This document shows positions 3,628 to 33,242 of a stretch of 64,000 bases of DNA, in pieces. This DNA comes from Streptomyces sp. NBC_00483 (GTDB lineage: Bacteria > Actinomycetota > Actinomycetes > Streptomycetales > Streptomycetaceae): the NCBI RefSeq assembly GCF_036013745.1, contig NZ_CP107880.1:9114001-9178000 (forward strand), written 5' to 3'. A model generated the notes under the pieces. It was not told where the DNA came from, made no database searches, and worked only from the letters and a program-made list of their open reading frames with translations. Every line of letters begins with the position of its first letter. Position 1 is the stretch's first letter. The translations under genes and the position numbers were made by a program.

Positions 3628-5067
3628 CTAGGCGTGCGGAATCGTGAGGCGGAACTGGGCGCCGCCACCGGGCGCGGGTTCGGCGACGAGGTCGGCGTGG
3701 TGGGCGTGCGCGATCTGGCGGGCCATGGCGAGGCCGAGGCCGGACCCGGGCAGGGCGCGGGCGCTGCGGGCGCGGTAGAAGCGGTCGAAGACGTAGGGCA
3801 GATCCTGTTCGGAGATGCCGGGGCCGTGGTCGCGGACGGTCAGCTCCAGGGTGTCCGACACGGAGGTGAGCGTGACCTCGACGGGGCGGCCCGGCGGGCT
3901 GAACTTGGCCGCGTTGTCCAGCAGGCTCGACAGCAGCCGTGAGAGCCGAGCCGGCACACCTGCGACGGTGGCGGTGCGCGCCTCGGGGGCGATCGACAGG
4001 GTGAGCGGGGTGGCCGGCCAATGGCCGCGTGCCGTCTCGACGGTGTGCGTCACGATGTCCGCGAGACGGATCTCCTCGATCAGCGGGTCCGGTTCCTCGT
4101 TCCGGGCCAGCTCGACCAGGTCGTTGACGAGGAGGGTGACCTCGCGCAGCTGGCGGCTCAGTGCGCCGGCCGCGCGCTCGCGCTGGGCGTCGCTGAGGCG
4201 GGAACTCCGGGTGAGCAGCTCGGCGTTGGTGCGCAGCGCGGTCAGCGGGGTGCGCAGTTCGTGGGAGGCGTCGGCGACCAGGCGTCGTTGCGCGCCGATG
4301 GACTTCTCCAGCTCGTCGAGCATGGTGTTGAAGGAGGCGGCGAGACGGGTGATCTCGTCGTCCTGGCCGGCGCGTTCCGGCGGCAGTTCGATGCGGTGCC
4401 GGGCATCGCGCGTGGCGGCGATGCGTTCGGCCGTGGCGGTGAGCCTGCTGACGGGCGCGAGTCCCGTGCGCGATACCCAGGCACCGAGGGCGCCGGCCAG
4501 CAGCACACCGGCCACTCCCATGCCGCCGAGCAGCACCGCGGCCTGACGCACACCCCGGTCCACGGTGTCCGCCCGCACGGCGACTTGGAGGGCGCGTCCC
4601 TCGGGCAGCGGTGTCGTGAGCATCCTGGCCCGGTGACCGGACAGCCTCAACTCGCTGTAGTACGGCCCCCGTTCGCCGGAGGCCACCTCGCGCGTGGAGT
4701 CGGTGACCGGCAGGAGGTACGGCTGCGTCGGGTCGTCGTCCGGCTGCGCGGGGACCAGCTGCGCGCAGGCCGGGGCGGCGAGGTAGCGGCACTGGCCCTG
4801 CACCACACCCGAGGGCTCGTGGCCGTACTGCTGGGTGGCCAGCCGGGCGGACTGCGTCAGGTGCAGGTCGAGCTGGTGCAGCAGCTGATGACGGATCACC
4901 ACGAAGCTGCCGGCGCACAGGCCGACGGCCACGGCGGCCACGGCCGCGGCGGCGGCGAGGGTCAGCCGGGTGCGCAGGGGACGGCGGCGCATCCAGCGGG
5001 CATGTCTGCGCCCGCCCTTCGGCAGCGGCCGGGACTGCGGTTCCGTGCTCTGCGGTTCAGTGCTCAC
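3628..5067 (-). CDS. Sensor histidine kinase (HAMP, HisKA, HATPase)
   Basis: A 479-residue membrane kinase. A short cytoplasmic start is followed by a membrane helix (LTLAAAAAVAAVAV), an extracytoplasmic sensor segment of about 130 residues with three Cys, a second helix (LLGGMGVAGVLLAGALGAWV), a HAMP linker, the phosphoacceptor box ASHELRTPLTAL, the N box LLDNAAKFSPPG, the G1 box DHGPGI, FDRFYRA, and the G2 box GSGLGLAMARQI. All catalytic boxes are intact. The GTG start at 5065-5067 overlaps the stop of the response regulator by 4 bp, so the two are translationally coupled. Its signal is unknown. The divergent MurG-like and sugar-dehydratase genes suggest a cell-envelope stimulus (inference). 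Confidence 0.95.
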   Translation of the reverse strand: MSTEPQSTEPQSRPLPKGGRRHARWMRRRPLRTRLTLAAAAAVAAVAVGLCAGSFVVIRHQLLHQLDLHLTQSARLATQQYGHEPSGVVQGQCRYLAAPACAQLVPAQPDDDPTQPYLLPVTDSTREVASGERGPYYSELRLSGHRARMLTTPLPEGRALQVAVRADTVDRGVRQAAVLLGGMGVAGVLLAGALGAWVSRTGLAPVSRLTATAERIAATRDARHRIELPPERAGQDDEITRLAASFNTMLDELEKSIGAQRRLVADASHELRTPLTALRTNAELLTRSSRLSDAQRERAAGALSRQLREVTLLVNDLVELARNEEPDPLIEEIRLADIVTHTVETARGHWPATPLTLSIAPEARTATVAGVPARLSRLLSSLLDNAAKFSPPGRPVEVTLTSVSDTLELTVRDHGPGISEQDLPYVFDRFYRARSARALPGSGLGLAMARQIAHAHHADLVAEPAPGGGAQFRLTIPHA

Positions 5068-5771
5068 GCCAGGTCCAGCCGGTAGCCGACGCCATGTGCC
5101 GTGTGGACGAGCCGTGGCTCGCCGTCGGCCTCCAGTTTGCGGCGCAGATACCCGACGTAGACGGCGAGGGAGTTGGAGTCGGGACCGAAGTCGCGGCCCC
5201 ACACCCGCTCCATGATCGTCTCGCGGGGGAGTACCTGCCCGGGGTGGCGCAGCAGCAGCTCGAGGAGGGAGAACTCGGTGCGGCTGAACTCGATGACACG
5301 TGTGCCGCGCCGCCCGCTCCGGCTGGCCGGGTCGACGACGAGGTCGGCGAAGCCCAGCGTCGTCGACGACTCCTCGGGCGCGGCGCTGCGACGCAGCAGG
5401 GCCCGGATCCGTGCCACCAGCTCGTCAAGGGCGAACGGTTTGACCAGGTAGTCGTCGGCCCCCGCCTCCAGGCCGTCCACCCGCTCGCTCACCGAGCCCA
5501 GCGCCGTGAGCACCAGGACCGGCGTGCGATCGCCGAGCGCCCGCAGGCGGCGGCAGACCGCGAGGCCGTCCACGCCAGGGAGCATGACGTCGAGCACCAT
5601 GGCGTCCGGCTCCCAGGCGGCGAGGGCGGAAAGCGCCGCGAGGCCGTCCTCCGCCCCGCGCACCTCATAGCCTTCGACCGCGAGTCCGTCCTCGACGGCG
5701 TACCGCACCTCCGGCTCGTCGTCCACCACCAGAACCTTCGGTGCGTTCGTGCACCCGTCGGCCGCGTTCAT
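5064..5771 (-). CDS. OmpR-family response regulator
   Basis: A 235-residue response regulator. The receiver domain (about 11-125) has the acidic pair in VVDDEP, the phosphorylatable Asp in MVLDVMLPG, and the Lys in VKPFALDEL. The C-terminal winged helix ends in LVHTAHGVGYRL. It is the first gene of the kinase operon and lies 63 bp from the divergently transcribed MurG-like gene. A TCTTAGA direct repeat with 11-bp periodicity in that gap is a good candidate for its own binding box, so it may control both directions. Confidence 0.95.
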   Translation of the reverse strand: MNAADGCTNAPKVLVVDDEPEVRYAVEDGLAVEGYEVRGAEDGLAALSALAAWEPDAMVLDVMLPGVDGLAVCRRLRALGDRTPVLVLTALGSVSERVDGLEAGADDYLVKPFALDELVARIRALLRRSAAPEESSTTLGFADLVVDPASRSGRRGTRVIEFSRTEFSLLELLLRHPGQVLPRETIMERVWGRDFGPDSNSLAVYVGYLRRKLEADGEPRLVHTAHGVGYRLDLA

Positions 5772-22473: not shown

Positions 22474-22629
22474 ACGGCCTGAACGGACACGGTGAGCCGA
22501 GTGGCGGATAGGCGCCGTGGCGCCAACCCGCCACCGTAAAGCAAGTACCGCACGACGCACAGTAGTTGACACTCTTCCCAGCTCTCGGAGCGCACCCCGC
22601 ACCCGATGGTTCCAGGAGAAGAGGCAACT

Positions 22630-25600
22630 ATGGCAAGAGGTACCGCGCGACGCGGCGCGGCCCTGCTGTCGGCCGGGTTGGCGTTCGCGCTGCTGCCCGC
22701 CGTCGGTGCGCACGCCGAGCCGGACCACGTGAGACCCCAGTCCACGAAGGCCGCCCGCGCCGCTCACACCGTGACGCTGGTGACCGGGGACAAGGTGACC
22801 GTGACGGACATCGGCGGCGGGCAGCGGACCGTCGATGTCAAGAGGCCCCAGGGAGCCACCGGCCTCGTCCGTACGCAGGTCACCGACGGCAAGATACGTG
22901 TCGTGCCGGACGAGGCCGCCCCCTACCTCGCCTCGGGGAAGCTCGACACCCGGCTGTTCGACGTGAGCGGCCTCATCGAGCAGGGCCTCGCGGACACCAA
23001 GGCCGACGCCACCCCGCTGATCGTCACCTACGGCGGCAAGAGCGCGCGCGGCACCGCCGCCACGCCCAAGGGCGCCGACCGCACCCGCAAACTCGGCAGC
23101 ATCGGCGGCGCGGCCCTCGACGCCGACAAGGGGCGCACCTTCTGGAACGACCTGACCAGCAAGGGAAGTTACACCGACGGCATCGGCAAGGTGTGGCTCG
23201 ACGGCCTCGTCGAGGGCGACATGGAGGAGTCCAACGCCCAGATCGGCACCCCGAAGGCGTGGGAGGCGGGGCTCACCGGCAAGGGGGTGAAGGTCGCCGT
23301 CCTGGACACCGGGTACGACACCACGCACCCCGACCTCGCCTCCCGCGTGAGCGAGTCGAAGTCCTTCATCGAGGGGCAGGAGGTCGCCGACCGGGCGGGG
23401 CATGGCACGCATGTCACGTCGACCGTCGGTGGATCCGGCGCCGCGTCCGACGGCAAGGAGAAGGGCGTCGCGCCCGATGCCACGCTCGCCGTCGGCAAGG
23501 TGCTCAGCGACGAGGGCTATGGCACCGAGTCCGAGATCATCGCCGGTATGGAGTGGGCCGCCAAGGACATCAAGGCCAAGGTCGTCTCCATGAGCCTCGG
23601 CTCCGACACCGGCAGCGACGGCACCGACCCGATGGCCCAGGCCGTCAACTCCCTCACCACCGACACCGGCACGCTCTTCGTCATCGCCGCGGGCAACGCC
23701 TACAGCCCCGGCACCATCGGCGCGGTCGACGCGGACGACGAGCGGGCCTCGTTCTCCAGCCAGGGCCCGCGCCTCGGCGACGACGCCCTCAAGCCCGACC
23801 TCTCGGCCCCCGGCGTGGACATCCTCGCGGCCCGCTCCTCGCTGGTGGACGGCTCCGGCAGCTACACCACCATGAGCGGTACGTCGATGGCGACACCGCA
23901 CGTCGCCGGTGTCGCCGCCCTCCTCGCGCAGGCCCACCCCGACTGGACGGCCGCGCAGCTCAAGAACGCGCTGATGTCGTCGTCGAAGCAGCTCTCCGAC
24001 TCCGCGTACGCCATCGGCTCCGGCCGGGTCTCCGTCCCCGACGCGATCGCCGCGAAGGTCACCGCGACGGGCAGCGCCGACCTCGGTTCCTACCGCTGGC
24101 CGTACGACAGCAACAAGCCGGTCACCAAGACCCTCACCTACTCCAACTCCTCAGACCGTGCGGTGGAGTTGGAGCTCGCGGTACAAGGGGATCCCGACGG
24201 CGTTGCGACGCTCGCCGACTCAAAGCTGACCGTGCCCGCGCACGGCGCCGCCTCCACCACCGTCACCGGCGACGGCTCGAAGGCCGCCGTCGGCACCAAC
24301 AGTGGTCGGATCGTGGCCAGTTCGGGTGGCGTGGCCGTCGCGCACACCGCCTTCGGGCTGGTCAAGGAAGAGGAGCGGTACACGCTCACCGTCCACGTGA
24401 AGGACCGGGACGGCAAGCCGGCCGCGGCCGACATCATGTACCAGCGGCTCGCCAAGGACACACTGCCGCAGCCGGCCACGGTCGATGAGTCCGGCACGGT
24501 CAAGCTGCGGCTCCAGCCGGGGACGTACTATCTGGACTCGTTCCTTGACGTCCGCGGAGCCCACGGCAAGGACTCCCTCGGCGCGGCCTATCTGTCCGAC
24601 CCCGAGGTGAAGGTCGACGGAGACCGCGAGATCACGCTTGACGGCACCAAGCTGCGTGAGGTCGACACACGTGTCCCGAAGGACACCGACCCGCACCAGA
24701 CACTCGTGCAGTACGACCGCAAGGCGGGCGGCACCGACGTGTTCGGCATGGTGCTGCTGCCCATCAAGTACGACACGCTGTACGCACTGCCCACCCGCCC
24801 GGTGAGCGACGGCAGTTACGCGTATCGCACCACCTGGCGCGAGGCCCAGCCGCGCGTCACCGTTGACGGCGTCGACGAGGTGTGGGAGCAGCCCGGCTCC
24901 ACGCTCGTCGAGGGTGACAGCAGGCTCACGCTGGTGAACGCGGGTGCCGGTGCCCCCGCGGACTACACGGGCAAGAACGTGACCGGCAAGGGCGTCCTCG
25001 TGCACATCGACGGCACCCGCACCCCGGCGCAGATCGCGCAGGCCGCCCAGGACGCGGGAGCCAAGGCGCTGTTCCTCACGGACGACAACCCCGGCCGGCT
25101 GAACACCCTCTTCTACAACGACGACAACACGGACCGGCCGCTGCAGATCGCGAGTGTCACCAACGCCGACTTCGCGCGGCTGCTCACCAAGCAGAAGCAC
25201 GGTGAGCGCATCAGGATGACGGGCGTCGCCAACTCCACGTACTCCTACGACCTGTCGAAGGGCTACAAGGGCGCGATCCCGGACCGGAGCCTGCTCTTCG
25301 CGCCGGGCTCCAAGGACCTCGCCACCGTCGACACCACCTTCTACGGTGCGAAGAAGACCGCGGGCAGCGAGTTCCGCCACTCGGTCGACCCGTCCTTCGC
25401 GGTCGCGGGCGGGTTCCAGGAGCGGTACGACTTCCCGGGGCACCGCACCGACTACGTGTCGGTCGAGCCGGGCCAGAAGTGGCACGAGTCCGTGAACCTC
25501 GGTCCCCTGGAGGAGCGCAGCGGCCTGGTGTCCTACCGGCCGGGCAGGCACACCGAGTTGAACTGGTTCAAGCCCGTCTGGCACCCCTACGGTGGCAGCG

Positions 25601-26253
25601 GTCTCGGTTGGGGCCAGCAGCGGAACGGTGACATGCTGCGCTTCAACATCCCCGGCTGGGGCGACTCGGGCCCTGACCACACCGGCTTCGGCGACCCGTA
25701 CAGCCCGGAAGCCGGCATGACGCAGTCCACCGAGGCCTTCGTGAACGGTGAGAGCGCGGGCCGACGCACGGGCAGCACCGCCCAGTTCAGTGTCAACGAC
25801 GGTTCCGAGCAGCCGTTCAAGCTGGTCACCGACACGGAACTCGACCCGGCCGTGTGGGGCATCCGCAGCACCTCGCACAGCGAGTGGACGTTCCGCTCGG
25901 GCACCACGCCGGACGACGCGTACACGTTCCTGCCGCTGATCAACCTCAACTACGACATCTACACGGACCTTGCCGGAAAGGTCCGTTCGGGCAAGCGCCT
26001 GCCCATCGGCCTGTCCGCCGAGTACGTCAAGGACGCGGCCGGCACGGGCACCATCGGCGGCGGCACCCTGAAGGTGTCGTACGACGACGGCAAGACGTGG
26101 AAGTCCGTTTCACTCACCGGCAGCGGCGCTTCCTGGAAGGGCACGCTGAACGTGCCGCGCGATGCCACCTCACTGTCGCTGCGGGCGACGGCGAAGGACG
26201 ACAAGGGTGGCTCGGTTTCGCAGGAGCTCGTCCGGGCGGCGGCCGTGAAGTAG
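22630..26253 (+). CDS. Secreted S8 subtilisin-like serine protease, 1,207 residues
   Basis: The signal peptide ends near AVGAHA (residue 29). A propeptide-like region with the strand HTVTLVTGDKVTVTD follows. The S8 catalytic domain spans about 210-470 with Asp226 (AVLDTGYD), His258 (RAGHGTHV), oxyanion Asn356 (IAAGNAYSP) and Ser419 (MSGTSMATPHV). The long C-terminal part (about 470-1207) is beta-rich and probably substrate- or surface-binding, with a PA-like insert around VLVHIDGTRTPAQIAQ. The ATG at 22630 is preferred over one at 22606 because AGGAGAAGAGG precedes it and it gives a clean signal peptide. Secreted to the medium or cell surface; nutritional or morphogenetic role unknown. Confidence 0.94.
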   Translation: MARGTARRGAALLSAGLAFALLPAVGAHAEPDHVRPQSTKAARAAHTVTLVTGDKVTVTDIGGGQRTVDVKRPQGATGLVRTQVTDGKIRVVPDEAAPYLASGKLDTRLFDVSGLIEQGLADTKADATPLIVTYGGKSARGTAATPKGADRTRKLGSIGGAALDADKGRTFWNDLTSKGSYTDGIGKVWLDGLVEGDMEESNAQIGTPKAWEAGLTGKGVKVAVLDTGYDTTHPDLASRVSESKSFIEGQEVADRAGHGTHVTSTVGGSGAASDGKEKGVAPDATLAVGKVLSDEGYGTESEIIAGMEWAAKDIKAKVVSMSLGSDTGSDGTDPMAQAVNSLTTDTGTLFVIAAGNAYSPGTIGAVDADDERASFSSQGPRLGDDALKPDLSAPGVDILAARSSLVDGSGSYTTMSGTSMATPHVAGVAALLAQAHPDWTAAQLKNALMSSSKQLSDSAYAIGSGRVSVPDAIAAKVTATGSADLGSYRWPYDSNKPVTKTLTYSNSSDRAVELELAVQGDPDGVATLADSKLTVPAHGAASTTVTGDGSKAAVGTNSGRIVASSGGVAVAHTAFGLVKEEERYTLTVHVKDRDGKPAAADIMYQRLAKDTLPQPATVDESGTVKLRLQPGTYYLDSFLDVRGAHGKDSLGAAYLSDPEVKVDGDREITLDGTKLREVDTRVPKDTDPHQTLVQYDRKAGGTDVFGMVLLPIKYDTLYALPTRPVSDGSYAYRTTWREAQPRVTVDGVDEVWEQPGSTLVEGDSRLTLVNAGAGAPADYTGKNVTGKGVLVHIDGTRTPAQIAQAAQDAGAKALFLTDDNPGRLNTLFYNDDNTDRPLQIASVTNADFARLLTKQKHGERIRMTGVANSTYSYDLSKGYKGAIPDRSLLFAPGSKDLATVDTTFYGAKKTAGSEFRHSVDPSFAVAGGFQERYDFPGHRTDYVSVEPGQKWHESVNLGPLEERSGLVSYRPGRHTELNWFKPVWHPYGGSGLGWGQQRNGDMLRFNIPGWGDSGPDHTGFGDPYSPEAGMTQSTEAFVNGESAGRRTGSTAQFSVNDGSEQPFKLVTDTELDPAVWGIRSTSHSEWTFRSGTTPDDAYTFLPLINLNYDIYTDLAGKVRSGKRLPIGLSAEYVKDAAGTGTIGGGTLKVSYDDGKTWKSVSLTGSGASWKGTLNVPRDATSLSLRATAKDDKGGSVSQELVRAAAVK

Positions 26254-27335: not shown

Positions 27336-27491
27336 GGCGCCAGCCTGTCACGGCTTCCGGGCGGTCTCCCGTTCATGTTGCCGTAGCCCTGAAGACTCCT
27401 GAAATACACCCGAGATTCTCATGGGCCCCTCATGTGCCGTTGGTTGCGTGTGCCTGGCCGGTCGGTCCGCAACGTATGAGCAAGGAGACGC

Positions 27492-28388
27492 ATGGTGTTC
27501 CTGTCGAAGGCAGCCGGCGAGCAGGAGAGCGAGGAGCCACTGCATGTGGCCAGTCGGCTGCACGCGTTCAACCGGTTCGAGCTGAAGTACCTGGTCCCCG
27601 TCGACCAAGCGGCCGAGATCCGCGACGAGTTGGCCGAGCGGATGGACACCGATCCGCACAGCCCGGTCGGCGGGTACGGGGTCTGGAGCCTGTACTACGA
27701 CAGCCCCCAACTCCGGTTCTACTGGGAGAAGATCGAGGGCCTCAAGTTCCGGCGCAAGCTGCGCATCCGGCACTACGGGAACCTCGACGGTGTCACCGAC
27801 GACTCGATGGTCTGCGTGGAGATCAAGCAGCGCGTCAACCGGGTCACGCAGAAGCGGCGCATCATGCTCCCCTACGGCGTGGCACGGCAGTTGTGCGACG
27901 ACCGTGAGATGCCGGAGCACTCGCCGAAGGAGAGCGCCTTCATCCAGGAGGTCCTCGCCCTCGTCGTCGAGGCGAACCTGCGGCCCACCGCCATCACCGG
28001 CTACCAGCGCGAGGCGCTGGTCGGGCGGGAGGCGGACACCGGCCTCCGTGTCACCTTCGACCGGCGCATCCGCGGCCGGGACCGGGACTTCCACTTCGGC
28101 ACCCCCACGCCCGAGAACCGGTTCACGATCCCGCCGCACCTGTCGGTCATGGAGATCAAGGTGAACGAGCGCACACCGACCTGGATCACCGACCTGGCCG
28201 CGCGGCGCAACCTCAACCTCGTACGGATCTCCAAGTACGTGCAGTCCATCGAGGCGTTCGGGCTCGCCCCGCGGTCGGTCTTCCACGTCAACGAGGCGGA
28301 CTGCCCGCCTCCAACCCCCTCTGAAGAACTGCCGCTCGAGCAGCGGCCGGCGCAGCACGATGCGTCGTTGAAGGTAGGAGCACAGTGA
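27492..28388 (+). CDS. VTC-domain polyphosphate polymerase
   Basis: A 298-residue cytoplasmic protein with the triphosphate-tunnel fold of VTC4-type polyphosphate polymerases, which build polyP from ATP. The tunnel residues are present: RFELKY (28-33), SLYYDSP, KFRRKLRIRHYG, VEIKQRVNRVTQKRR, FDRRI, VMEIKV and the closing SKYVQSIEAFG. All basic and acidic positions I can check are intact, so it should be active. The start has AAGGAG upstream. Its stop overlaps the next start (GTGA). First gene of a VTC/DUF4956/CotH operon. Confidence 0.9.
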   Translation: MVFLSKAAGEQESEEPLHVASRLHAFNRFELKYLVPVDQAAEIRDELAERMDTDPHSPVGGYGVWSLYYDSPQLRFYWEKIEGLKFRRKLRIRHYGNLDGVTDDSMVCVEIKQRVNRVTQKRRIMLPYGVARQLCDDREMPEHSPKESAFIQEVLALVVEANLRPTAITGYQREALVGREADTGLRVTFDRRIRGRDRDFHFGTPTPENRFTIPPHLSVMEIKVNERTPTWITDLAARRNLNLVRISKYVQSIEAFGLAPRSVFHVNEADCPPPTPSEELPLEQRPAQHDASLKVGAQ

Positions 28389-29062
28389 ATTTCGATCTGC
28401 AGGAACTCAGCGGCACGTTCAGCGTGGCCGATGTCGTGGCGGCGATGGCGCTGTCGTTCATCCTGTCCACGGTGATCGGTTACACGTACCGGTACACGCA
28501 CCGGAACGTGTCCTACAGCCAGTCGTACGTGCAGACGCTGGTCATCGTCGGCATGATCGTCGCGCTCATCATGCTGGTCGTCGGCTCGAACCTGGCGCGG
28601 GCCTTCTCGCTGGTCGGCGCCCTGTCCGTGGTCCGCTTCCGCAACGCGGTCAAGGAGACCAGGGACGTCGGCTTCATCTTCCTGGCCATGGCCATCGGCA
28701 TGGCCTGCGGTGCCCGCTTCTACACGCTGGCCGCGGTCGGCGCCGTCGTGATCTGCGCCGTCATCCTCGTGATGCACAAGTTCAACTGGTTCGCCCTCAA
28801 CGTGCAGCGCCAGGTCGTCAAGGTCCAGGTCCCGGCAGGCGAGGACTACACCCCGCAGCTGCGTGACGTGCTCATCAAGTACACCAGCGAGTTCGAGCTG
28901 GTCAGCACCGAGACCATCCGCGGTGGCGCGCTGAACGAGATCTTCTACACCGTGCGTCTGAAGAAGGGCGCCGAGCCCAGCGACCTGGTCGGCGCGCTGC
29001 AGGAACGCACCTCCGGCCAGCGGGTCACCGTGCTGACCGGTTACGACACGACGGACCTGTGA
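28385..29062 (+). CDS. DUF4956 integral membrane protein
   Basis: A 225-residue protein. Four hydrophobic helices occupy about residues 15-135 (VVAAMALSFILSTVIGY, TLVIVGMIVALIMLVVGS, DVGFIFLAMAIGMACG, TLAAVGAVVICAVILVM), with the DUF4956 signature SLVGALSVVRFRNAVKETRD between helices 2 and 3. A cytoplasmic C-terminal ferredoxin-like domain follows. The GTG overlaps the polymerase stop and its own stop overlaps the CotH start. It could be the membrane path or anchor for the polymer made by its neighbour (hypothesis). Confidence 0.9.
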   Translation: MNFDLQELSGTFSVADVVAAMALSFILSTVIGYTYRYTHRNVSYSQSYVQTLVIVGMIVALIMLVVGSNLARAFSLVGALSVVRFRNAVKETRDVGFIFLAMAIGMACGARFYTLAAVGAVVICAVILVMHKFNWFALNVQRQVVKVQVPAGEDYTPQLRDVLIKYTSEFELVSTETIRGGALNEIFYTVRLKKGAEPSDLVGALQERTSGQRVTVLTGYDTTDL

Positions 29063-30612
29063 TGCCCTCCGCCAGGGCGGGGCGGCGGCTGCGGGACCGG
29101 CTGCCCGTGCGACTGCGCCACCACTGGAAGCCGGTCACGGCGCTGGGTGTCGGGCTCGCCGCGATGGTCTGTTTCCTGGGTGACGCGCGGATCTCCCCGT
29201 ACGTGACCTCGTCCTCGCGCGTCGAGGCGGACGCCATCACCGACAACGTCCAGGGGACGGTGGACCTGTACGACACCTCGGTGTCGCACTCGATCCAACT
29301 CGCTTACCAGCAGACCGACTTCGACAAGATGATGAAGGAGTTCAAGGACGACGGCACCAAGGACTACATCGAGGCCGACCTCACGATCGACGGTGTCTAC
29401 CTCAACGACGTCGGGATCCGTCTGAAGGGGAACTCCACCCTGTCGTCCCTGCGCGGCGCCAAGGGCATGCCCGGTGGCGGCCGGGACATGCCTCAGGGCG
29501 GGCAGGGAGCTCCGGCCGGTGGCCAAGGTCAGAAGGCCGGAGGCAAGGGCGGAATGGGCGGCATGATGCAGTTCAATCTGTCCGCCAAGAAGCCCGAGGA
29601 ACTGCCCTGGCTCGTCAAGGTCGACGAGTACGTCGAGGGCCGCGCCTACCAGGGCGAGCGGGAGATTTCGCTGCGCCCCGGCAGCGACGGCCAGGTCCCG
29701 GCCAACGAGGCACTGTCGCTGTCCCTGACCGACGAGAGCGGCCAGAAGGCCGAGCGGTACGCGTTCACCAAGCTGAAGGTGAACAACCGGCCCACCGCCG
29801 CCCGCCTCATGGTCGAGGCCCCCGACACCGACTACGCCGACGACGTGTCCGGCGGCAACGCCGTGCTCTACAAGGCCCGGGCGAGCGGCAGCTTCGAGTA
29901 CAAGGGCGACGACCCCAGCGACTACGAGACGTCCTTCAAGCAGCTCAACAAGAAGGGCAGCCAGGACCTCGAACCGGTCATGAAGCTGATCAAGTGGGCC
30001 GGCAAGGCCTCGGACAAGGAGTTCGCGCGCGACCTCGACACCTACGTCGACGTCGACTCGTTCGCCAAGTACGTCGCCTCGCAGAACCTGCTGCTGAACT
30101 TCGACGACATGGCGGGCCCGGGCAAGAACTACCTGCTCTCGTACGACCTGGACACCAAGAAGTTCTCCGTCCTGGGCTGGGACTACAACCTGACCTTCAG
30201 CGGCGACGCCACCACCGGTCCCGACGACTCGGTCGGCATGGGCGGCGGCATGCCCGAGGGGATGCCGGAAGGCGCGCCCGGCGGCGCAGCGCCAGGAAAG
30301 CAAGGTGGCGGGGGCTCGGACGCGGACGCCAAGGGTGGAATGGGTGGCATGGGCGGGCGCATGCAGCACGTCCTGAAGTCCAAGTTCCTCGACTCCGACG
30401 CGTTCGACGGTGTCTACCAGAAGGCGTATAGCGAGCTGTACCAGAAGTTCTACGGCTCGGGTACGGCGACGAAGACCCTCCAGGAGATCGCGGACCAGGC
30501 CCGCAAGGCGGGCGCCGACTCCAAGGAGTTCGACACCGCCGTCACCAAGCTCCAGAAGACCGTCACCGACCGGCGCGCGGCGCTGGCCAAGGACAAGAAG
30601 GTGACCGGCTGA
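29062..30612 (+). CDS. CotH-family protein kinase-like, membrane-anchored
   Basis: A 516-residue protein with one N-terminal membrane helix (VTALGVGLAAMVCFLG) and an extracytoplasmic CotH domain. Landmarks are IRLKGNSTLS, FTKLKVNNRPT, YVASQNLLLNFDDMAGPGKN and VLGWDYNLTFSG; the last two carry the Asp positions expected for catalysis. Two Gly/Met-rich low-complexity inserts (about 135-170 and 393-433) interrupt the fold. Either GTG 29059 or ATG 29062 could start it; both overlap the DUF4956 stop. CotH in Bacillus phosphorylates spore-coat proteins; the target here is unknown. A strong terminator follows. Confidence 0.9.
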   Translation: MPSARAGRRLRDRLPVRLRHHWKPVTALGVGLAAMVCFLGDARISPYVTSSSRVEADAITDNVQGTVDLYDTSVSHSIQLAYQQTDFDKMMKEFKDDGTKDYIEADLTIDGVYLNDVGIRLKGNSTLSSLRGAKGMPGGGRDMPQGGQGAPAGGQGQKAGGKGGMGGMMQFNLSAKKPEELPWLVKVDEYVEGRAYQGEREISLRPGSDGQVPANEALSLSLTDESGQKAERYAFTKLKVNNRPTAARLMVEAPDTDYADDVSGGNAVLYKARASGSFEYKGDDPSDYETSFKQLNKKGSQDLEPVMKLIKWAGKASDKEFARDLDTYVDVDSFAKYVASQNLLLNFDDMAGPGKNYLLSYDLDTKKFSVLGWDYNLTFSGDATTGPDDSVGMGGGMPEGMPEGAPGGAAPGKQGGGGSDADAKGGMGGMGGRMQHVLKSKFLDSDAFDGVYQKAYSELYQKFYGSGTATKTLQEIADQARKAGADSKEFDTAVTKLQKTVTDRRAALAKDKKVTG

Positions 30613-30642
30613 CCGGCCTACCGGCTGATCGGCTGAGAAGGT

Positions 30643-30695
30643 CTCCGGCACCCCGGGCCGTCGCTGCGCGGAGCAAGCGGCCCGGGATGCCGGAG
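30643..30695 (+). terminator. Terminator of the VTC/DUF4956/CotH operon
   Basis: An 18-bp stem (30643-30660 with 30678-30695) with a single mismatch encloses a 17-base loop. It begins 31 bp after the CotH stop. Confidence 0.85.
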
Positions 30696-30813
30696 ATATT
30701 CGGCCACGTCCCTATATGTGCCCATCACGCACAGGAACCCTGCCTAGCATCGCGCCGCACGACCAGGACCCGCCCCGGCGGCTCCACCTGTCCGTATCCC
30801 GAGGTGTCGGAGC

Positions 30814-31569
30814 ATGAACATCCAGCAGCAGCCACCCGCGCGCACATCCAACGCCGCACACACCGTCCTGGTCGTGGAGGACGACGCCAGCATCCGTACC
30901 CTGCTCACCTCCGCGCTCAGCGCGGCCGGCTACGCCGTGGCGAGCGCGGCCGGCGGGCAGGAGGCCATGTTCGAGGCGGGCAGCCGCCGGCCCGACCTGA
31001 TCGTCCTCGACGTGATGCTGCCCGACACCGACGGCTTCGAGGTCACCCGAGCCCTGCGCGCCCAGGGCGTCTACACACCCGTGCTGTTCCTCACCGCACG
31101 GACCGGGGTCGAGGACCGCATCATCGGCCTGAGCTCGGGCGGCGACGACTATGTCACCAAGCCGTTCCACGTCCAGGAGGTGCTGCTGCGCATCCGCGCC
31201 ATCCTGCGCCGCACGGGGATCTCCGCCTCCGCCACCGGTGCCCGGCCACCTTTGCGGTACACCGACCTCACCTTGGACGAGGACACCCACGAAGTGCGTC
31301 GCGCGGGCCGCCTGCTGAAACTGTCACCCACCGAATTCCGGCTCCTGGCCTGCCTGTTGTCCCATCCCGAACGCGTCATGGAGAAGGCCGAGATCCTCCA
31401 GCAGGTGTGGCGCTACGACTTCTCCGGTGACACCCGGATCGTCGACACCTACGTCAAGAACCTGCGCCGCAAGATCGACCAGGACGGTCCCGCGCTGATA
31501 CACACCGTGCGCGGCGTCGGCTACTGCCTGCGGCTGCCGCGTGGCGAGTCCGACGCGGTGACACGGTGA
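30814..31569 (+). CDS. OmpR-family response regulator
   Basis: A 251-residue regulator. The receiver domain (about 20-135) has VVEDDAS, the phospho-Asp in IVLDVMLPD, and the Lys in VTKPFHVQEV. The winged helix ends in LIHTVRGVGYCL. The N-terminal 17 residues form an extra polar leader. It is coupled to the following sensor kinase by a GTGA overlap. The 118-bp gap after the CotH terminator should hold its promoter; no repeat stands out there. Confidence 0.94.
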   Translation: MNIQQQPPARTSNAAHTVLVVEDDASIRTLLTSALSAAGYAVASAAGGQEAMFEAGSRRPDLIVLDVMLPDTDGFEVTRALRAQGVYTPVLFLTARTGVEDRIIGLSSGGDDYVTKPFHVQEVLLRIRAILRRTGISASATGARPPLRYTDLTLDEDTHEVRRAGRLLKLSPTEFRLLACLLSHPERVMEKAEILQQVWRYDFSGDTRIVDTYVKNLRRKIDQDGPALIHTVRGVGYCLRLPRGESDAVTR

Positions 31570-33242
31570 CGCGCCCGCGCCTACGACGCCTGCGTAAACG
31601 GCTGCGGCTACGGCTCCGGTTGCCGCGTTCCCTGCGCAGCCGTCTCGTGCTGATTGCGGGCCTGCTGGCCACCAGCGCCGTCCTGCTGTGCCAGCTGGCC
31701 GCCCTGACCGTGCTGCGCGGCTGGCTCACCGACCAGGTGGACAACCAGCTCTTCCACTTCCGTCCCCCGGGCCGGGTCTACGAAGACATCAAGACCGACG
31801 GCACACTGCGAGGACCGCCGAGGTCCGACAACACGCTGCCCTCCGACTACCGCGTCCACTTCTACGACGAGAACGGCCGGCTGCTCGGCGACTCCCTGGG
31901 CAGCAGCGACGCACCGGGCCCACAACTCCCGCAGCGCGCCGCCGACTTGCACCTGACCGCCCGGCAGCCGAGCACGGTCCCGGCCGAGGACGGCGCGGGG
32001 TCCGACTGGCGAGCGATCTCCTACTCCGGGCCCGACCACATGCGCGCCGTCGTCACCCTGCCCCTGGACACCGTGGACGGCGCCACCACCAAACTCCTGT
32101 GGGTCAGCCTCGGCCTCGGTGTCGCCGTCGCGGTCGGGGTGGTCGTCCTCGGCAACGGCGCCGTCCGCCTGGGACTTCGCCCGCTCACCCGCGTCGAGCA
32201 CACCGCCCAGCACATCACCGAGGGCGCCCTCGAACTCAACGTCCCCGGAACGGACCCGGACACCGAGGTCGGCCGCCTCGGCCTGGCCCTCAACACCATG
32301 CTCGACCGACTGCGCACGGCGCTGCACCGCACAGAGGCCTCGGAACAGCAGCTACGCCGCTTCCTCGCGGACGCGGGGCACGAACTGCGCACCCCGCTCA
32401 CGGCCGTCCAGGGATTCGCCGAACTCCTCCTCGACGCACCCGACATGGCGGACCGGCGCCGTCACGAGGCACACACCCTGATCGCCCACAACGCCGACCG
32501 GATGAGCCGCCTCGTCGACGACCTGTTCCTCCTCGCCAAGCTCGGTGAGGGCGGCGACACCCACCCGCCCACCACGCACCGCGAACCCGTCGACCTCCTC
32601 TCCCTGGCGGCCGACGCCATCGCCACCACCGCGATACGCCACCCCCGCCGAGCCATCACCCTGGAACCCCTCGGCGGCCGCACAGGCGACTGCGGTGTCG
32701 GCTCCACCCCTGACCCCAACCCCGACCCCGACGGCCCCGATCCTGAACACGACCTCGACATCGTCGAGGCCCCCGGCGACCCCCACCAACTCGCCCAGGT
32801 CCTGGGCAACCTGCTCTCCAACGCCTGCGCGCACACCCCCGCCGACACCCGCATCCGCGTCCGCGTGGGCGCCGCTCGCACCCCGGCCGAGCAGGGGCCG
32901 GGCAGCGGGGTGACACTGCCACCCGGCACACCCGTGTCTGTCGTCGAGGTCGCGGACAGCGGCCCGGGCATCGAACCCGCAGAGGCGCCCCACGTCTTCG
33001 ACCGCTTCTACCGGGCCACCCCGCCCACATCGTGCGACGAACCGGCGGATCCGGACCCCGAGGCCGCACCCGAACCGGGCTCCGGCCTCGGCCTGGCCAT
33101 CGCCTCCGCCATCGCGGCCGCACACGGCGGACGCCTCGAACTGGACAACCACCCGGGCGCGGGCTGCACCTTCCGGCTGCTCCTGCCGAACTCGGCCACC
33201 GCACCCAACTCGGCCACCACGCCGAAGGTCGACCAAGGTTGA
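31566..33242 (+). CDS. Sensor histidine kinase with Pro/Asp-rich insertions
   Basis: A 558-residue kinase. A very basic start (RPRLRRLRKRLRLRLRLP) leads into helix 1 (LVLIAGLLATSAVLLCQLAAL), an extracytoplasmic domain (about 58-175), helix 2 (LLWVSLGLGVAVAVGVVVL), HAMP, the phosphoacceptor box DAGHELRTPLTAV (Gly replaces the usual Ser), N box NLLSNACAHTP, G1 DSGPGI and G2 GSGLGLAIA. Two unusual inserts interrupt the ATPase domain: a Pro/Asp run at about 380-394 and another before the G2 box (about 488-503). The pair resembles Streptomyces TcrA/PrrB-like systems; the signal is unknown. Confidence 0.93.
   Translation: MTRPRLRRLRKRLRLRLRLPRSLRSRLVLIAGLLATSAVLLCQLAALTVLRGWLTDQVDNQLFHFRPPGRVYEDIKTDGTLRGPPRSDNTLPSDYRVHFYDENGRLLGDSLGSSDAPGPQLPQRAADLHLTARQPSTVPAEDGAGSDWRAISYSGPDHMRAVVTLPLDTVDGATTKLLWVSLGLGVAVAVGVVVLGNGAVRLGLRPLTRVEHTAQHITEGALELNVPGTDPDTEVGRLGLALNTMLDRLRTALHRTEASEQQLRRFLADAGHELRTPLTAVQGFAELLLDAPDMADRRRHEAHTLIAHNADRMSRLVDDLFLLAKLGEGGDTHPPTTHREPVDLLSLAADAIATTAIRHPRRAITLEPLGGRTGDCGVGSTPDPNPDPDGPDPEHDLDIVEAPGDPHQLAQVLGNLLSNACAHTPADTRIRVRVGAARTPAEQGPGSGVTLPPGTPVSVVEVADSGPGIEPAEAPHVFDRFYRATPPTSCDEPADPDPEAAPEPGSGLGLAIASAIAAAHGGRLELDNHPGAGCTFRLLLPNSATAPNSATTPKVDQG

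Follow-up and report, generated by a model that had tools for sequence, protein, structure and literature searches.

What is achieved by placing a gene for a VTC-type triphosphate tunnel metalloenzyme (TTM), a putative polyphosphate (polyP) polymerase, directly against the genes of a DUF4956 membrane protein and a CotH-family kinase? The question is raised by a 64-kb window of Streptomyces sp. NBC_00483 (positions 9114001-9178000 of its single 10,237,418-base contig), the whole stretch of DNA analysed here, in which these three genes (the trio) occupy positions 27492 to 30612. We put at roughly 0.5 the probability that they form a surface module, conserved and under its own control, linked to a sensor, making polyP and carrying CotH on the outside of the cell. 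This reading is based on the gene order, the family membership of the proteins, their catalytic residues, the tight linkage of VTC and DUF4956, the enrichment of two-component genes nearby and a repeat found in Streptomyces.

The locus and its limits

The elements concerned are the following, in window positions:

27416-27433, + strand: direct repeat TTCTCAT-n4-CCCTCAT, ending 58 nt 5' of the VTC start; candidate response-regulator binding site
27482-27487, + strand: AAGGAG, like a ribosome-binding site on reading the sequence
27492-28388, + strand: VTC-type TTM of 298 aa, putative polyP polymerase (PF09359, E 3.4e-47)
28385-29062, + strand: DUF4956/MgtC-like membrane protein of 225 aa (PF16316, 6.4e-24)
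29062-30612 (ATG at 29062, or GTG at 29059), + strand: CotH-family kinase of 516 aa with an N-terminal anchor (PF08757, 4.5e-26)
30641-30697 (core), + strand: long G+C-rich hairpin 3' of the CotH stop, terminator-like, without a T-run (z -5.3)
30814-31569, + strand: PhoB/OmpR-type response regulator of 251 aa (PF00072, 9.4e-27; PF00486, 4.2e-27)
31566-33242, + strand: sensor histidine kinase of 558 aa (HAMP, HisKA, HATPase_c; two transmembrane segments)

The preliminary description of this DNA reported three overlapping genes, and this is borne out: all three open reading frames are in place and, read from the sequence, VTC runs into DUF4956 through GTGA and DUF4956 into CotH through TGATG. 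It further spoke of a strong terminator closing the unit. The hairpin is real (z -6.1 when a slightly different stretch is folded) and recurs in relatives, a strong fold (z ≤ -1.8) lying 3' of CotH in 15 of 16 Streptomyces loci, this one included, with L120 (-1.3) as the exception; but it is absent from the list of the consensus terminator scan and, because it has no T-run, its role as a terminator is only presumptive. A closed unit may thus describe the transcript correctly but leaves out part of the neighbourhood, and the idea of a closed three-gene system was rejected, since response regulator and histidine kinase genes recur beside the trio.

Conservation and the varying third partner

In an evenly drawn sample of 198 Actinomycetota genomes, our own included, the 20 genomes with DUF4956 are exactly those with VTC, and 16 of the 17 that carry CotH belong to this set; conserved co-occurrence in this phylum, on which the preliminary description had staked its proposal in advance, is thus what was found. 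By coordinates, VTC and DUF4956 are neighbours in all 20 genomes (hypergeometric p 8e-28, kinship not removed). Of the 17 genomes with CotH, 14 have it no more than about 2 kb from the pair, two on another contig (G108, G147) and one, G157, alone. Within the genus the cluster is patchy, as a match to this VTC protein was found in 17 of 246 genomes, including one 44-residue remnant (L125) that is excluded from the Streptomyces counts; G147 is excluded from the neighbourhoods, and sub-threshold hidden Markov model (HMM) matches are excluded. Gene calls in relatives are anchored on HMM matches, and some open reading frame starts lie too far upstream.

More widely, the named loci (the best 80 of at least 586 confirmed in a DUF4956 scan, an uneven sample picked by patterns from alignment A3, which includes this window's own protein) span Actinomycetota, Chloroflexota, Bacillota, Planctomycetota, Acidobacteriota, Verrucomicrobiota, Myxococcota, Bacteroidota and others, plus two archaeal contigs. 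VTC adjoins DUF4956 in 75 of these 80, and within 1.5 kb there is CotH in 63, Cthe_2159 in 6 and either in 68 (one with both). The commonest arrangement, VTC, DUF4956 and CotH in this order on one strand, is that of 68 of 117 loci; no fusion was found, as no open reading frame in 118 sequences (the 117 loci and the window) exceeds 30 bits on two of the three profiles. Mirror-tree correlations, from which species relatedness was not removed, amount to r 0.94 between VTC and DUF4956 (113 loci) and 0.95 between CotH and the response regulator (35 loci). VTC-DUF4956 is the near-constant core of the module.

The third partner varies. In the Actinomycetota loci L079-L082, Cthe_2159 (PF14262, carbohydrate-binding) stands at the place of CotH, in genomes without any CotH match; its assignment is by Pfam for L079, L167 and L189, and by a profile built from L079-L082 for the others. 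On a VTC tree of 113 loci (mixed supports, some long branches, gains and losses undistinguished), the label "Cthe_2159 without CotH" (9 loci) requires 6 changes, and the swap therefore seems to have occurred more than once. Among the loci with neither, the neighbour of DUF4956 is in one case each a GH5 cellulase (L165), an arabinofuranosidase (L159) or an arylsulfotransferase (L162, where CotH follows after about 5 kb); in others there is a Cys/Met-metabolism enzyme (L164) or a product with no match above cut-off (L171). As CotH is replaced by Cthe_2159 or, in single loci, by another carbohydrate-acting protein, the module most likely has its output at the cell surface or in the matrix.

The same genome holds a second, divergent VTC-DUF4956 pair without CotH (L074, at about 4.765-4.769 Mb of G000:C1), accompanied by a two-component system, also divergent, and by a gene for a Ser/Thr protein kinase of 614 aa. 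VTC of this type matches in 27 of 150 Streptomyces genomes; in 12 short loci, own included, a histidine kinase match lies beside it in 7 and the protein kinase in the own locus only.

A linked two-component system and a candidate operator

The regulator downstream of the trio combines a receiver with a Trans_reg_C domain and its partner is a HisKA/HATPase kinase, as in two-component systems of the OmpR/PhoB type; the predicted transmembrane segments of the kinase (27-45 and 177-195) flank about 130 aa. Response regulators like this one (at least 200 bits) cluster around the block, near being within 2.5 kb of it: 19 in 351.0 kb near versus 1 in 499.2 kb beyond for the best 80 named loci (binomial p 6e-7), 7 in 98.8 kb versus 1 in 226.1 kb for Actinomycetota (p 1e-3) and 12 in 72.7 kb versus 4 in 153.9 kb for Streptomyces (p 5e-4), kinship not being removed from these values. 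A regulator is adjacent in 20 of the 80, 7 of 20 and 12 of 16 loci, respectively, and is therefore recurrent, not constant; its position relative to the block varies between upstream, downstream and the opposite strand. On a regulator tree, most adjacent Actinomycetota regulators fall in one part, with those of L074 and L079-L082 outside it and the non-adjacent ones of L112, L115 and L142 inside.

Streptomyces loci share TTCTCAT-n4-TCCTCAT 5' of VTC, two seven-base repeats 11 bases apart, and repeats of this sort are often bound by OmpR-family regulators. The pattern TTCTCATNNNNYCCTCAT has one exact match in the 10.24-Mb genome (27416-27433) and one place with 1 mismatch (2807430, L207), its reversed control having 0; in the window there is 1 match against 0.07 expected. 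All 13 Streptomyces loci with a same-strand downstream system (the window, L109, L110, L112-L117, L119, L120, L126 and L127) keep 11 or more of the 14 positions (Fisher p 0.0016, kinship not removed). Where such a system is lacking, the number kept is 10 in L121 and L128 and 11 in L122, all three with no system at all, and 8 in L123 and L124, whose system is on the opposite strand; L111 and L118, at contig ends, keep 12 and 14. The regulator of the linked system may bind at 27416-27433, which is put forward as a candidate site.

Another two-component system, whose regulator belongs to this family, lies on the - strand at 3628-5771, about 22 kb from the trio, and the family is therefore not used only at the trio; in the Streptomyces loci L109, L112, L114 and L115 an extra copy of the same kind of regulator lies near the module. 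Just upstream of the trio, positions 22606-26253 encode a large S8 protease of 1215 aa with subtilase and PA domains.

Properties of the three proteins

The VTC-type protein covers positions 1-233 of 235 of PF09359, a near-full-length domain, and its family profile (A2) matches yeast Vtc4 (3g3q) at 2.1e-23. That its tunnel residues are intact, as the preliminary description had it, is confirmed by alignment with Vtc4: R91, R93 and E221 align with R264, R266 and E426, the residues of a triple mutant in the available part of PMC9911596, and are kept in 111 of 112 relatives; together with K112, K121, R173, R186 and K248 they match like residues of Vtc4 and are kept in 111 or 112 of the 112, counts that, like those for CotH below, come from profile-found proteins and so reflect conservation partly by construction. 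The protein is predicted, and likely, to synthesise polyP from ATP. With the eukaryotic VTC complex (Vtc1/3/4, as described in the available part of PMC9911596) it shares a TTM domain with the same catalytic residues, plus a membrane partner; in contrast to that complex, neither an SPX domain nor a fused transmembrane channel domain was found (the protein holds the VTC domain only, with no predicted transmembrane segment), the partner is a DUF4956/MgtC-like protein, and translocation is hypothetical.

The DUF4956 protein scores 85 bits on PF16316 (cut-off 30.6). Structure models were made for it and for CotH; in its own, helices span residues 14-38, 46-66, 68-85, 92-109 and 113-132, four of them transmembrane, in agreement with the four-helix membrane partner proposed earlier, and one a further helix with an RFR motif, at which helix 68-85 terminates. 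The modelled C-terminus has the order beta-alpha-beta-beta-alpha-beta of a ferredoxin/ACT-like domain. PDB searches with the sequence or a profile gave nothing meaningful, and the VIA structure list, which spans residues 139-225, outside the membrane part, holds no MgtC structure.

The CotH fold is present in the third product, whose counterpart in Streptomyces sp. NBC_00006 is 98% identical. A single N-terminal anchor is predicted at about residues 22-40, preceded by 7 K/R and 1 D/E, and the protein is predicted to face the outside of the cell, in line with the outward-facing kinase first suggested. The Asp positions claimed for it are present as well: D348 and D374 fall in a motif common to B. 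cereus CotH and are equated through spacing with the catalytic pair D228 and D251 of B. subtilis; they are kept in 85/92 (7 gaps) and 84/92 (6 gaps, 1 G, 1 N) CotH proteins. Two disordered Gly/Met/Pro-rich loops lie at residues 139-166 and 395-432, or at about 128-182 and 382-437 when taken more widely, one of them after a conserved WD motif, and similar stretches occur in 64 of 95 module CotH proteins. In the anchor, in these loops and in having no known coat substrates, it differs from the Bacillus CotH spore-coat kinase (5jd9; PMC7821199, in its available part). N-termini are hydrophobic in 85 of 93 CotH and 11 of 11 Cthe_2159 proteins, versus 7 of 113 VTC proteins, and these partners therefore look secreted or anchored.

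Proposed mechanism

Reading these features together, we propose that an envelope signal would be detected by the sensor kinase and that its regulator would bind the 7-4-7 repeat at 27416-27433 and turn the trio on. The soluble VTC enzyme, docked on DUF4956, would then convert ATP to polyP at the inner face of the membrane; DUF4956 would link this reaction to the envelope, either as an exit path or as a regulator via its ACT-like domain, and CotH, anchored outside, would phosphorylate a surface protein or matrix material. In line with such a module, loss of the DUF4956 or of the CotH gene in S. intermedius changed the amount of Pel, a biofilm sugar polymer, and in either case cost over half of aggregation in one medium (PMC12345266, as available). 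Export of polyP by the module is possible, and surface phosphorylation fed by it is a bold but testable idea. Because there is no obvious ATP supply outside the cell, polyP is proposed as the CotH donor; the full picture would be a split bacterial VTC machine in which VTC and DUF4956 make polyP and thread it out as phosphate donor for anchored CotH, under its own sensor system, and to this complete scheme we give little chance. If true, it would explain how an extracytoplasmic bacterial kinase is fuelled, and in the Cthe_2159 variants exported polyP would instead have a carbohydrate-binding surface protein as its partner. Literature searches for polyP as phosphoryl donor of CotH gave nothing relevant among the open-paper matches listed, and those that combined CotH, Streptomyces and two-component systems nothing relevant in open papers.

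Several points weigh against a sensor-linked, polyP-making surface module. For S. intermedius lacking its VTC gene, no effect on aggregation or on the presence of Pel is reported in the available part of PMC12345266, and the genome studied here also carries Ppk1 and PPK2 family genes. E30 of the VTC protein, equated with Glu-4 of AtTTM3 via the ExExK motif, is acidic (E or D in 110/112), unlike its counterpart in Vtc4, and the likeness of DUF4956 to MgtC is at least as great as that to a channel. Neither CotH nor Cthe_2159 lies within 1.5 kb in 12 of the best 80 named loci, and the two-component system adjoins only the 20 of 80 and 7 of 20 loci given above. The loci that yielded the counts for the repeat are also those in which it was first spotted by eye. 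Only 1 of the 21 loci tested from beyond the Streptomyces set, among them several with a two-component system, reaches 11/14; the repeat is therefore not general.

Alternative explanations

A serious, though rather unlikely, alternative is that nothing is exported and that DUF4956 is an MgtC-like regulator which, with VTC, senses or adjusts internal phosphate or ATP and acts on the histidine kinase or on a polymer synthase, CotH being a separate output. The protein matches MgtC (PF02308) at 1.7e-6 with 28.8 bits, 2.6 short of the cut-off of 31.4, and PRK09977 MgtC/SapB at 3.2e-5, far under cut-off; it has transmembrane helices like that family, and the ACT-like domain of its model is one that MgtC proteins presumably also carry at the C-terminus. 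This alternative leaves unexplained the near-constant VTC-type partner, whose gene almost always adjoins DUF4956 and sets it apart from the MgtC/SapB family, and most distant loci (60 of the best 80 named) have no adjacent two-component system. In its favour, the available text of PMC6658541 gives the PhoR kinase as a target of Salmonella MgtC, and deletions in S. intermedius have opposite signs in that of PMC12345266, loss of the DUF4956 gene giving more Pel and loss of the CotH gene less.

Unlikely too is that the genes adjoin only through shared use in exopolysaccharide loci (Pel or other), with no direct mechanism between polyP and CotH. According to the available part of PMC7112168, CotH, polyP polymerase and DUF4956 genes adjoin Pel loci. 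In streptococci, clostridia and bifidobacteria the accessory set cotH-PPP-DUF4956(-DUF4832) (PMC7112168; SIR_1592-1594, PMC12345266; both as available) has the same three families, contiguous, but within pelDEADAFG loci; the locus studied here lacks PelG and has instead a two-component system, plus a direct repeat before the trio. C. perfringens NELoc-2, VTC-"tubulin"-CotH-chitin synthase, likewise brings VTC and CotH genes and a glycosyltransferase into close proximity, but the available part of PMC2879425 describes it as a locus only, with "tubulin/FtsZ" in the position of an unnamed DUF4956. Glycosyltransferases also lie beside L085, and in L083 (G088), whose genome gave no PelG match, the neighbours of the trio are a chitin-synthase-like gene of the GT2 type, a GGDEF gene and a response regulator with an HD domain; this looks like a locus, controlled by cyclic di-GMP, for a polymer of another kind.

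Against this explanation, a full match to PelG (PF16933), the sole Pel gene searched, is absent from all 35 Actinomycetota genomes that carry VTC and DUF4956, many of the genomes being incomplete. Five of them have weak matches (25-32 bits) in the C-terminal part of frames 1.3-1.5 kaa long, which we do not take for Pel, though that in G412 is over the family cut-off. Fifty of the best 80 named loci were tested as well, some without a detected VTC or CotH gene (L190, for example): 48 of these genomes have no full PelG match, four weak ones (19 to 28.5 bits) not being counted, and two have one, so the profile works. In both of the latter the module is elsewhere, about 0.57 Mb from PelG in G481 (C1 being taken as the L199 record) and on a contig other than L198's in G480. 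The genome studied here has PelG only as a 25-bit partial match about 6.5 Mb away, PelG being the Pel gene searched, and no glycosyltransferase is among the 17 window genes scanned, which include the direct neighbours of the trio. A role as Pel accessory only was rejected on the PelG counts.

That the VTC-type protein is a triphosphatase or polyphosphatase, through which the module removes or senses polyP, is improbable, for although E30 lies at the place of AtTTM3 Glu-4, part of the acidic patch of hydrolytic TTMs in the available text of PMC4641920, two further placeable patch positions are basic as in Vtc4 (R28, with R in 96/112, 12 gaps, 3 A and 1 K; K223, in 111/112) and all 10 PDB matches of the VTC profile are Vtc subunits.

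Significance

The trio is already in print, which had escaped the preliminary description, as had the neighbouring two-component system. New, as far as literature searches reach, are its independence of Pel, the recurrent sensor system with its candidate operator in Streptomyces and the exchange of CotH for Cthe_2159. What had been described as an appendix of Pel loci becomes a widespread, mostly Pel-independent module with exchangeable secreted partners, at odds with a published statement, and Streptomyces offers a harmless and genetically tractable group in which to address the purpose of bacterial VTC enzymes, of DUF4956 and of CotH kinases outside spores.

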